Source: Streptomyces sp. V3I8 (GTDB taxonomy: Bacteria; Actinomycetota; Actinomycetes; Streptomycetales; Streptomycetaceae). Taken from it: a DNA stretch of 64,000 nt. Below, piece by piece: positions 25,144-27,983 of the stretch. The stretch's first letter is position 1, and every line of letters starts with the position of its first letter. The stretch covers positions 2,480,001 to 2,544,000 of the forward strand of contig NZ_JAUSZL010000002.1 of assembly GCF_030817535.1 (NCBI RefSeq), in the 5' to 3' direction. Below the pieces are notes generated by a model. That model had not been told where the DNA came from. It did no database searches and worked only from the letters and a program-made list of their open reading frames with translations. A program made the position numbers and the translations under genes.

Positions 25144-26739
25144 GTGGACCCGGTGATCATCGTCGGAGCGGGGCCCGTAGGACTCACGCTCGCCCTGGCA
25201 CTGGCGCGTCAGGAGGTCCCCTCGGTCGTCCTGGACGAGAGCTCCGGCAAGGACGAGCAGCGGCTCGCGCGCACGGCCGTCCTGCGCGAGGACACCGCCG
25301 CGCTGCTGGGACGGCTGACGGGCTTCCCCGTGGCCGAGGCCGGTTTCCGCTGGGCCGGATGGCGGTCGATGCGGCGCAGGCAGGTGATGCGGCAGATCAC
25401 CTTCGGTGAGGACGACCCCGCGCTCCTGCACCTCCCCCAGCACCTGCTCACGGCCGCCCTGCGGGAGGCCATCGCGGCCGAACGGCTGGTCAAGGTGGCC
25501 GTGGACAGCCGTCTCGACTCCGTCGAGCAGGAGCCCGCGGGCGTCACGGCGCACACGCGGGGCCCCGGGGGAACCTGGTGGCGCGGCAGCCACCTGGTCG
25601 GTTGCGACGGTCCGCGCTCGACGGTCCGCAAGCTCCAGGACATCCGTTTCCCCGGCCGCACCGCCGTGGAACGGCACGCCGTCGCGGCGCTGCGTACGGA
25701 ACTGCCGTGGCCCGGCGAGGCGGTGCTGCACCGTATGCCGCCGTGGCGGTCCTCGGGCCCCGCGGTGACCGAGGTGACCGCGCGCCCCCTCGCCGAGGAC
25801 GTGTGGCGCCTGGACTGGCTGCTGCCGCCGGGCAAGGACCTGGTCACCCCCGACCTCCTCGTGGCGCGCGTCCGGGAGACCCTCGCGGGCTGGTGCGGGG
25901 GCACCACTCCGCCGTACGAGCTGCTGGACACCGGGGTCCACACGGTCCACCACCGGCTGGCGCGCAGGTGGCGGGCCGGCCGGATCTTCCTCGCCGGGGA
26001 CGCGGCGCACCTGCTCGGCGCGCTGGGCACCCAGGGCCTCGACGAGGGGCTGCGGGACGCCGACAACCTCGCGTGGAAGCTGGCCCTGGCCTGGCACCAC
26101 GGTCCGCACGAGGCCCTGCTCGACAGCTACCAGCTGGAGCGGCGCGCGGTCGTCGCCGCCCGGCTGCGCGCCGCCGACCAGGCGCTGCCGGTGCTGCGCG
26201 GCGGAGGCCTGCGGTCCGCGGTGCCCGGTGCGGCCCGCAACCACGACACCCTGCTCACGGACGGCCACCTGGGGCGCGGCGCACTGGGTGCGCCGGGAGC
26301 GTACGCCGATTCGCCGCTCACGCCTCCACGCGCCGAATCCTTCGTCGAGGTCGACACGGCGGTGGGCGCCCAGGTCGCCGACGTACGGGTGACGGCGGAG
26401 GACGGCTCGTCCGTGGCACTGCGGGACCGGCTGGGTAGGGGCGCCCTCCTGGTGCTGCTGATCGCGCCGGGAACCGTGGTGTGGGAGCGCAAGCACTGGG
26501 TGACGGCCGGAATCATGCCGCGGCTCGCCGCCGCCGTGACCGCGCTGCCGCACCGGGCCGAGCTGCTGGTCGCCGAGAGCTACCCGGGCGCGGCCGCGCA
26601 CACGGTGCTGCTCATCCGCCCGGACGGACACCTGGTCACAGCGTTGGGCGGAGTGCGTCCCGCCGATCTGTACGCGGCCGCGGAGGCGACGCTGGGCGGT
26701 CCCCTGGCCGCGGCGGAGCCCGCCTCCAGCAGGACGTGA
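25144..26739 (+). CDS. FAD-dependent aromatic monooxygenase (PHBH/PheA family)
   Basis: A 531-aa class A flavoprotein monooxygenase, expected to hydroxylate an aromatic or polyketide-like substrate with NAD(P)H and O2. The FAD-binding GxGxxG is IIVGAGPVGLTLALALA at the N-terminus, the DG motif is HLVGCDGPRSTVRK (about residue 157), and the GD motif is IFLAGDAAHLLGALGTQGLDEGLRDADNLAWKLA (from about residue 280). The last 130 residues match the thioredoxin-like C-terminal domain of these enzymes. The GD motif lacks the usual PPxGGQG and reads LGALGTQG, so substrate or flavin handling may differ. The GTG start at 25144 leaves no leader before VDPVIIVGAG. No pathway neighbours are present, so the substrate is unknown. 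Confidence 0.85.
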   Translation: MDPVIIVGAGPVGLTLALALARQEVPSVVLDESSGKDEQRLARTAVLREDTAALLGRLTGFPVAEAGFRWAGWRSMRRRQVMRQITFGEDDPALLHLPQHLLTAALREAIAAERLVKVAVDSRLDSVEQEPAGVTAHTRGPGGTWWRGSHLVGCDGPRSTVRKLQDIRFPGRTAVERHAVAALRTELPWPGEAVLHRMPPWRSSGPAVTEVTARPLAEDVWRLDWLLPPGKDLVTPDLLVARVRETLAGWCGGTTPPYELLDTGVHTVHHRLARRWRAGRIFLAGDAAHLLGALGTQGLDEGLRDADNLAWKLALAWHHGPHEALLDSYQLERRAVVAARLRAADQALPVLRGGGLRSAVPGAARNHDTLLTDGHLGRGALGAPGAYADSPLTPPRAESFVEVDTAVGAQVADVRVTAEDGSSVALRDRLGRGALLVLLIAPGTVVWERKHWVTAGIMPRLAAAVTALPHRAELLVAESYPGAAAHTVLLIRPDGHLVTALGGVRPADLYAAAEATLGGPLAAAEPASSRT

Positions 26740-26769
26740 GGCGGGCCCTGTCCAAGCACTGACATCGAG

Positions 26770-26799
26770 TTGACCGGTGCCCACCGGCGATGGTGTACT
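26770..26799 (+). promoter_or_regulatory. Promoter of the cysteine leader / CDO operon
   Basis: TTGACC (26770-26775) and TGTACT (26794-26799) form a plausible HrdB promoter with 18-nt spacing. Transcription would begin about 7 nt after the -10, at or next to the GTG at 26807, so the leader peptide is probably translated from a leaderless mRNA. Confidence 0.5.
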
Positions 26800-26806
26800 C
26801 CGGAGC

Positions 26807-26893
26807 GTGACCGACAGCTGTGTGCGCCTGTGGCGGAGGGTCCATATGGACCTCGTCCGCTATGCGGGCTGCGTGTGTCGCCCGTCCTGCTGA
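26807..26893 (+). CDS. Cysteine-rich leader peptide (probable attenuator ORF)
   Basis: A 28-codon ORF, GTG to TGA, whose product ends MDLVRYAGCVCRPSC. Three of the last seven residues are Cys, and a fourth Cys is near the start (MTDSC). An internal ATG at 26846 with GGAGGG 5 nt upstream would give the 15-aa form. The (R/H)-(V/M)DL-x-R core followed by a Cys cluster is the pattern of the short putative leader peptides found before sulfur-metabolism genes in Streptomyces. Its stop is 80 nt before the cysteine dioxygenase start. Inference: ribosome stalling on Cys codons reports cysteine level and controls the downstream operon. No clear terminator/antiterminator pair is obvious in 26894-26973, so the mechanism may be translational or Rho-dependent. 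Confidence 0.7.
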   Translation: MTDSCVRLWRRVHMDLVRYAGCVCRPSC

Positions 26894-26973
26894 CTTCGCA
26901 TCCTTCTTCCCTCCCGCGCGTGAGCCCCTGCGGCCGCCGCGCGTCACCGCGAACGCCCCTCAGGACGGTACCC

Positions 26974-27537
26974 GTGTCTGTGTCACCCTCTGTTCCCACT
27001 TCCGCTCCCGTCTCCGCCGGTTCCCCGGCTCCCACCGCGGCCGGTGCTCCCACTCAGGCCGAACTGCTGGAGTTCGTGCGCCGTACGGCCGCCGACACCG
27101 AGCTGATCGCCTCCCTCCCGCTCGACCCCGAGGGCCGGACGTGGGTACGCCTCGACGGTCCCGGGGGCAGCGAGGCCTGGCTCATCGGCTGGCCGCCCGG
27201 CACGGGCACCGGCTGGCACGACCACGCCGAGTCGGTGGGCGCGTTCCTCACCGCGTCGGGTGAGCTCAAGGAGAACTCGCTCGTCGCGCGACTGCCCACC
27301 GACGGCTGGCAGACCCTCGAACTGACCGAGGGGATCGACCGCGAACGGCGGCTGTCGGCGGGCAAGGGCCGTGCTTTCGGGCGCCACCACGTGCACGAGG
27401 TGCTCAACGAGTCCACCGAGGAGCACGCCGTCTCCGTACACGCGTACTACCCGCCGCTGCCGCGGATCCGTCGCTACAGCCGCACCGGCCAGGTCCTGCG
27501 CCTGGAGCAGGTCGAGCGCCCCGAGGACTGGCAGTGA
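26974..27537 (+). CDS. Cysteine dioxygenase (cupin, type I family)
   Basis: A 187-aa cupin that oxidises L-cysteine to cysteine sulfinate with O2, removing excess cysteine. The iron-binding set is visible: His-x-His in GTGWHDHAESVGAF (about residues 80-82) and the later His in EHAVSVHAYYPPLPRIRRY. GRHHVHEVLNES matches the second cupin motif. The GTG at 26974 is chosen because AGGACGG lies 6-7 nt upstream; about 30 N-terminal residues are Ser/Pro/Ala-rich. It overlaps the rhodanese gene by 4 nt (GTGA) and follows a Cys-rich leader ORF, so the operon is probably cysteine-responsive. Confidence 0.9.
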   Translation: MSVSPSVPTSAPVSAGSPAPTAAGAPTQAELLEFVRRTAADTELIASLPLDPEGRTWVRLDGPGGSEAWLIGWPPGTGTGWHDHAESVGAFLTASGELKENSLVARLPTDGWQTLELTEGIDRERRLSAGKGRAFGRHHVHEVLNESTEEHAVSVHAYYPPLPRIRRYSRTGQVLRLEQVERPEDWQ

Positions 27538-27983
27538 CGGACGTCCGGCCCGCGCCGGCCGAACGCCCCGTGGGGATCGACGAGTTGCTGGAGCGCGTAC
27601 GTGCGGATCTGGACCGGGTGGAGGCAAAAGCCGCCCGTGACGCCGTGCGGGCGGGCGACGCCCTGCTCGTCGACATCCGGTACGCGGCACTGCGCGAGCG
27701 CGACGGACTGATCCCCGGCGCGCTGGTCGTCGAGCGCAACGAACTGGAGTGGCGGCTCGACCCGCAGGGCAGCCACCGCGCCCCCGAGGCCACGAGCCAC
27801 GACCTGCGTGTCGTGGTCGTCTGCAACGAGGGGTACGCGTCGAGCCTGGCGGCCGCGTCCCTGCGGCGGCTGGGCCTCCACCGGGCCACGGATCTGGTGG
27901 GAGGCTTCCAGGCCTGGCGGTCGGCGGGGCTGCCGGTGGACACGGCCGTGCTGTCGGGTGCGGCCCCTGTCGGGCACAGCTAG
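27534..27983 (+). CDS. Rhodanese-like sulfurtransferase
   Basis: A 149-aa single-domain rhodanese. The segment ALLVDIRYAALRERDGLIPGALVVERNELEWRL is the N-terminal rhodanese pattern, and VVVVCNEGYASSLAAASLRRLG holds the active-site Cys (loop CNEGYAS). The last segment DLVGGFQAWRSAGLPV is the conserved C-terminal helix. It moves sulfane sulfur, and coupling with cysteine dioxygenase through a 4-nt overlap suggests a cysteine/persulfide detoxification unit. A hairpin follows directly after the stop. Confidence 0.9.
   Translation: MTDVRPAPAERPVGIDELLERVRADLDRVEAKAARDAVRAGDALLVDIRYAALRERDGLIPGALVVERNELEWRLDPQGSHRAPEATSHDLRVVVVCNEGYASSLAAASLRRLGLHRATDLVGGFQAWRSAGLPVDTAVLSGAAPVGHS

Follow-up and report, generated by a model that had tools for sequence, protein, structure and literature searches.

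An apparently leaderless cysteine leader peptide with a predicted Shine-Dalgarno-masking tail precedes a cysteine dioxygenase-rhodanese operon in Streptomyces

The window analysed here, a stretch of 64,000 nucleotides from a 9.3-Mb Streptomyces genome, carries on its forward strand a gene with a GTG start for a cysteine-dioxygenase-like (CDO) thiol dioxygenase (26974-27537; PF05995, E 4.5e-49), followed with a 4-nt overlap by a gene for a rhodanese-domain protein (27534-27983, +; PF00581, E 1.2e-13). By its sequence the enzyme is assigned to the CDO_I family, with free cysteine as putative substrate; the nearest solved chains are named cysteine dioxygenase, the best match reaching just E 2.9e-12. 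Upstream of this operon lies a short leader ORF on the same strand (26807-26893), which is read from GTG to TGA as 28 codons plus stop (MTDSCVRLWRRVHMDLVRYAGCVCRPSC) and holds Cys at codons 5, 22, 24 and 28. The 28-codon ORF, promoter-like boxes in front of it, the overlap of the CDO and rhodanese genes and an internal ATG preceded by GGAGG had been listed in a preliminary description of this DNA, and all are present in the sequence. Directly upstream of the leader, at 25144-26739, a gene for a FAD-dependent monooxygenase (PF01494) is situated, and the upstream DNA of two further loci (L031 and L146) resembles this region by eye, which suggests a conserved neighbourhood.

The boxes consist of a -35-like TTGACC (26770-26775, +) and a -10-like TGTACT (26794-26799, +), separated by a spacer of 18 nt, and 7 nt lie between TGTACT and the GTG of the leader. 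Among 87 orthologous leaders, which start with GTG or ATG, an element TNNA(C/G)T stands 6-7 nt before the start codon in 87/87 and is preceded at 17-18 nt by TTGA(C/T) in 86/87. A plain promoter scan found 0 standard sigma-70 sites in the leader region under a rule by which the second base of the second hexamer must be A (it is G in TGTACT), and the putative promoter assignment rests on the conservation of the boxes across orthologs and not on the scan. The constant distance between the -10-like box and the start codon supports a leaderless start, and the leader thus appears to be leaderless. At protein level the ORF matches NCBIfam model NF042934 ('putative leader peptide') with 37.2 bits (cut-off 27), while Rfam at gathering thresholds gave no match at the leader. 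The proposal that an apparently leaderless Cys leader precedes the CDO-rhodanese operon is supported by the conserved start spacing and by the annotated leader-peptide family.

CDO matches were obtained from 93 of 101 genomes of the genus, four of them weak only (E 5.6e-19 to 8.4e-14), and 89 orthologous loci remain, own genome included. A leader upstream of CDO on the same strand was found in 87 of these 89 loci, 86 by motif and L031 by eye; in L087 the contig edge was reached and the upstream region is absent from the sample, and in L116, with different upstream DNA, a leader was not found. The leader core was met in at least 120 stretches, and 78 of the 80 loci listed from named records belong to Streptomyces. 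In codons 9-24, with 1392 cells for each codon position, the consensus is departed from in 58 cells at the first, 6 at the second and 117 at the third position. As these changes are mostly third-position changes, they indicate that the peptide, with its conserved core HMDLVRYAGC (codons 13-22; 26843-26872, +), is under selection at the amino-acid level. Codons 2-8, with departures of 53, 94 and 81 of 560 cells each in 80 rows, vary freely and display no silent-change pattern, and codons 25 and 28 are variable among orthologs as well.

The cysteines are very unequally retained. Cys24 (26876-26878, +), nine codons after Asp15, is encoded by the rare codon TGT in 87/87 orthologous CDO leaders; Cys22 (TGC; 26870-26872, +) is Cys in 86/87 of the genus and missing from some CDO leaders of other genera; Cys28 is retained in 76/87, and Cys5 was rejected as a sensor with Cys in just 24/87. 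Conservation of the Cys codons across Streptomyces, for which the preliminary description had called for an alignment, is consequently found for codons 22 and 24 and is not strict for codons 28 and 5. A second form of the peptide, supposed to start at the internal ATG (26846) behind GGAGG (26835-26839), is not supported: ATG occurs in 70/87 leaders, CTG or CTC in 12 and GTG in five, so that ATG is missing in 17/87, though the Shine-Dalgarno-like GGAGG is mostly kept (10 of the 12 CTG/CTC leaders), and the ATG count rules out this start as a conserved feature. In the same part of the window (26834-26852), the rare codons AGG (79/86) and CAT (77/86; both from a tally without L031) are strongly conserved and GGAGG likewise persists; GGTCCATATGGACC at 26839-26852 is a perfect palindrome.

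Two features of the leader were overlooked in the preliminary description, the invariant TGT codon and a tail complementary to the ribosome site of the CDO gene. The CDO Shine-Dalgarno (SD) region CAGGACGG (26961-26968, +) finds its reverse complement in codons 26-28 (CCGUCCUG), and complementarity, folding and recoding all point to CCGTCCTG (26882-26889, +) as the anti-SD tail by which this region would be masked. A second stem could form between TTCGC behind the stop codon (26895-26899, +) as 5' arm and its complement GCGAA (26949-26953, +) as 3' arm. In computed folds of 86 orthologs (L093, in which the CDO start was not found, was left out of folding, pairing, covariation and recoding counts), the main ensemble partner of the SD is the leader tail with a mean probability of 0.83, and opening of the ribosome-free SD site costs 11.6 kcal/mol on average. 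With a ribosome placed on the leader, its footprint edge being assumed, not measured, at 15 nt from the first base of the P-site codon, the mean cost is 12.1 kcal/mol for a stall at Cys22, 5.8 for a stall at Cys24 and 5.95 at the stop codon. The Cys22 cost exceeds the Cys24 cost in 82/86 orthologs, and a ribosome at termination exposes the SD to the same degree as one stalled at UGU24.

The synonymous codons used in the leader fit the SD that follows: in 22 orthologs (every fourth of the 86), random G/C-ending synonyms in codons 9-28 lowered the mean opening cost from 11.9 to 7.0 kcal/mol, and only 34 of 660 recodings matched the native cost. For the window leader 6/30 recodings reach the native energy, and the window is thus not among the strongest examples; its overall stability is not unusual (z -1.08), and an 8-nt complement arises by chance in 32 of 1000 shuffles of this leader. 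When the tail is removed, the SD is still largely paired locally (mean 0.80-0.82).

Pairing was further compared over 97 loci, composed of all but one of the 87 genus rows that carry the leader (86), four more of the same genus and seven of the 29 other-genus loci with leader (those omitted are without GGACGG or, in the case of L128, L140, L141 and L154, have GGACGG but were unmatched by the motif pattern; L119 and L121, from duplicate genomes, were left out of the covariation and strand-pairing sets). The own tail and SD strands pair better than dinucleotide shuffles, with z below -2 in 85/97 loci. Matched strands reach a mean of -22.06 kcal/mol vs -21.12 for permuted ones, a difference attained in 0/5000 permutations, behind which few independent events stand, as the permutation groups are clades. 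In the second stem two arm solutions go together: where GCGAA stands before the SD (68 loci), TCGC follows the stop in 66 and TGATCC in 0, and where GCGATC stands there (18 loci), TGATCC follows in 15. Cells of the eight-pair block hold standard pairs in 95% over the 97 loci, and among the 19 unique tail-SD combinations 84% are standard pairs, vs 26-55% when the strands are slid; one pair is broken in 7/97 loci (CCUUCCUG with CAGGACGG). Covariation inside the aligned 8-bp block is not significant, as 536 of 2000 shuffles of the 19 combinations reach the observed value. Taken from these models, it is highly probable that the leader tail and the post-stop RNA hide the CDO SD in a masking helix, a newly described RNA gate which is testable base by base.

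Outside the genus the leader persists more widely than the helix. CDO matches were present in 40/61 genomes at family level and in 12/396 at phylum level (best eight or fewer candidates scored per genome), 11 of the latter from the same genus and one, L147, from outside the family. Among the 39 loci L118-L156, a leader with HxDLxR motif or a near variant is readable in 35 (29 from other genera), each of which carries TGT nine codons past the Asp of the motif (D+9); L146, L147, L151 and L152 are without an HxDLxR-type motif. In L147, from outside Streptomycetaceae, a different Cys-rich short ORF (MVSMCHGVMRCRCCA) without HxDLxR lies upstream of the CDO homologue. Tails differ among the other genera, some with compensation (CCGUCCC with GGGACGG in L123, L124 and L130), and in six folded leaders of CVCTAAR type the SD pairs mainly locally, in one only narrowly so, from which it follows that the helix belongs to Streptomyces and some neighbours and not to every CDO leader. 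Retention of CCGTCCTG past an early stop in L134, L139 and L142 was dropped as support, as in the fold of L134 the stall position is without effect on the opening cost (5.86, 5.73 and 5.50). Six loci of one other genus (L122, L125, L129, L132, L135 and L143) display a local hairpin-like CDO ribosome site with varying arms (GGGU..ACCC, AAGG..CCUU), which in the folds looks like an alternative way of hiding this site.

The TGT codon at D+9 is not confined to CDO leaders. In 13 genomes of the genus it was found in 37/37 readable leaders, eight of which are CDO leaders already among the 87; the sample comprised 39 loci, 11 from the own genome and 28 out of 94 listed matches, of which L011 (no codon at D+9) and L169 (unreadable) stand outside the 37, and L014-L016 score under the NF042934 cut-off. 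Beyond the genus, 22/22 readable leaders agree, the ambiguous L193, L196, L206 and L207 standing outside this count (26 loci, after removal of four same-genus ones from 30; L199-L201 are nearly identical peptides from one genus). Other Cys codons behind the motif are 19 TGC to 2 TGT in the genus sample, 15 of the 19 TGC coming from the eight CDO leaders and the 29 non-CDO leaders giving 4 TGC to 2 TGT, and 28 TGC to 11 TGT outside the genus. Long frames with high GC3 in the window, used as a proxy for genes, gave TGC:TGT of 227:30, a background taken from the window alone. The family is present in 68/98 genomes of the class, and because NF042934 is a protein-level model, a TGT codon cannot be selected by it. 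To our knowledge there is no published statement of this rule. One family-like leader, L011 (G000:C2:1338397-1338441), has TAG where TGT is usual; G002 and G087 likewise contain matches that are cut there (profile positions 3-17), and L011 is divergent from leader L007 at a distance of about 0.5 kb.

Several paralogous leaders of the genome precede genes that look like sulfur genes, namely MoaD/ThiS-like with cysteine synthase, sulfite reductase, sulfurtransferase and LLM-type enzymes, and others an ABC ATPase, a regulator-like gene or unidentified frames (all names read from translations). Before two LLM-type genes the UGU region has an 8-nt complement, in L013 to the downstream ribosome site, where it is used in the computed fold, and in L007 to the start region, where it is hardly used. 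Masking of a ribosome site by the UGU region was not seen in the folds of L006, L009 and L011; the partners of the ribosome site in L016 lie mainly at +9..+26, and in L010 and L012 the downstream starts were not found. Family-wide masking by the UGU region, which is clear in L013 alone, is therefore not claimed.

We are nearly certain that the ORF functions as a ribosome-sensing leader peptide. The reading we prefer, with a probability of roughly 60%, is a translational attenuator in which the CDO operon is closed by the SD helix and opened by a ribosome pause at UGU24. When no ribosome is near the leader tail, the operon would stay closed, and a ribosome paused with UGU24 in the A site would cover the tail and free the CDO SD. 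Such a pause would arise from scarce Cys-tRNA and might be reinforced by the nascent peptide. The modelled energies together with the anatomy support SD masking that a ribosome standing either at UGU24 or on the stop codon may relieve. Whether a stall opens the gate in response to Cys shortage is, in our judgement, an evenly balanced matter. Cysteine-dependent attenuation of the mycobacterial kind, if transferred to this locus, predicts induction of CDO in cysteine shortage, and from such induction it would follow that the CDO-rhodanese pair probably liberates sulfur. The operon could then be part of a cysteine-limitation regulon, and if this is true, recovery of sulfur from a thiol would be a likelier task of its enzymes than removal of a surplus of cysteine. 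The core idea of the preliminary description, a Cys leader controlling the CDO operon, thus stands, and neither its direction nor its second start does so in the form given: that a surplus of cysteine raises CDO expression is doubtful, since a pause at UGU24 would expose the SD when Cys-tRNA is short, in agreement with reports on Cys leaders of mycobacteria. For the surplus-on reading to hold, either Cys22 would have to be the site of the decisive stall, by which the polarity would be reversed, or the peptide would have to sense cysteine itself. In either direction the CDO-rhodanese operon would be placed under cysteine-leader control in Streptomyces, and the role of the dioxygenase, be it disposal of cysteine or recovery of sulfur, is put in question.

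The reversed polarity deserves attention as an improbable, but serious, alternative. Starvation would stall the ribosome at Cys22, short of the anti-SD tail, and leave CDO off, and with plentiful cysteine full translation to the stop would open the helix and turn CDO on, which fits the role of a catabolic enzyme. The opening cost that stays at 12.1 kcal/mol for the Cys22 stall and falls to 5.95 at the stop is in agreement with this, as is the spacing, since the anti-SD begins 12 nt after the start of Cys22 in the CDO leader, while in L013 it begins 2 nt after the start of UGU and is coverable by a UGU stall. Moreover, codon 22 is Cys in 86/87 CDO leaders vs 0/29 non-CDO leaders of the genus with Cys at the same position (D+7). 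However, the family-invariant stall candidate is UGU24 and not Cys22, the energies depend on the assumed edges of the ribosome footprint, and Cys at D+7 is missing from several CDO leaders of other genera. As D+7 Cys is common outside the genus (17/22 leaders), it is no CDO speciality, and Cys22 as a CDO-only addition was ruled out. Somewhat less improbable, though still short of the preferred attenuator, is an arrest by the nascent peptide, in which the HxDLxR core within the exit tunnel would halt the ribosome at UGU24 and the signal would be cysteine or the quality of Cys-tRNA, in the manner of TnaC, rather than plain tRNA starvation. Classical attenuators require sensor codons alone, and here the peptide core is kept with mostly silent changes, the register of nine codons to UGU is fixed in every readable leader, and the other Cys codons behind the motif are mostly TGC (19:2 in the genus sample; 28:11 outside the genus). 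Yet the first of these ratios owes most to the eight CDO leaders (4 TGC to 2 TGT in the other 29), RNA structure may be what keeps part of the core codons, among which CAT, AGG and GCG occur in excess, and mycobacterial regulation is explained by cysteine availability alone in the available portion of PMC9031893.

Two further explanations carry less weight. Attenuation at the level of transcription, by an intrinsic terminator or by Rho acting on the pyrimidine-rich stretch behind the stop unless a ribosome blocks it, is rather remote: positions +7..+24 after the stop do average 77% pyrimidine in 87 orthologs, but this stretch is not G-free (18% G), the conserved tail is already accounted for by the SD-masking helix, and an intrinsic terminator between leader and CDO was rejected with 0 terminator-like sites at 26650-27050. 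That the 28-aa peptide has a function of its own, or that the ORF is incidental to the promoter region, appears hardly credible; conservation at the peptide level would suit the former, but codons 2-8 are free, codons 25 and 28 are variable, the synonymous codons fit the SD behind the leader and the family stands before many different genes. 

It is a tentative idea of ours, put forward with some reserve, that the HxDLxR leaders across Actinomycetia do more than count Cys as attenuators and form a single class of codon-specific arrest peptides. In such a class the core would act nine codons from an obligate UGU, host genes would each attach their own anti-ribosome-site RNA, and the CDO leader would be a gate of this type, whose sign Cys22 might tune or even reverse. 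The fixed distance from core to UGU is a simple rule, seen wherever examined in the class and not predicted by models of tRNA charging alone, and it makes arrest peptide vs codon counting directly testable.

Polycysteine leaders of mycobacteria are among the closest known systems, and in work of 2020 by Canestrari and colleagues the RNA of such a leader reportedly hides the downstream ribosome site, a feature which the CDO leader RNA shares by computation only. Cysteine-dependent attenuation is ascribed to these leaders in the accessible parts of PMC9031893, PMC9094748 and PMC13236596, and like them the CDO leader is an apparently leaderless Cys leader before cysteine-related genes, its start being judged from the spacing of the -10-like box. 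Unlike the polycysteine leaders as portrayed in the available text of PMC9031893, however, it has no contiguous Cys codons but CVC and a variable Cys28, and genus and target operon differ; it is therefore not filed as a polycysteine attenuator, though it may work alike. The uORF of cysA2 in mycobacteria, with conserved, clustered Cys codons and speculated control by cysteine or redox state (Shell et al., 2015; PMC4633059, in part), is likewise a small Cys ORF before a sulfur gene, although the target differs and the accessible part of that paper describes no RNA switch of the kind proposed for the CDO leader. Short leaders before amino-acid genes, several of them leaderless, were described for S. 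lividans TK24 (PMC8079986), and the eight listed in the available portion are Leu, Trp, Ala, Ile, Met and Thr leaders, none for Cys and none before CDO. One of the leaders in that portion, metL before metNIQ, ends in CMCRRMCAF and might equally answer to cysteine (PMC8079986). The Ms5788A family (NF042933) resembles the C-terminal half of the CDO leader, which is not a member with 18.3 bits under the 45-bit cut-off. TnaC-like arrest peptides keep a conserved nascent-chain motif at a constant spacing to the codon of the stall; the register from D to UGU is invariant in the readable members of the leader family, for which arrest itself is putative. From a classical transcription attenuator, with its intrinsic terminator, the leader differs in having none at 26650-27050. 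A search of the literature by title or abstract found no paper on a CDO leader peptide. With a score over the cut-off and with the core and UGU register of the family, the window ORF belongs to NF042934, an entry which gives neither mechanism nor target and to which this member adds an anti-SD tail for the CDO gene. The leader is thus a well-conserved member of an annotated kind, and its distinctive features are the predicted RNA gate and the codon rule.
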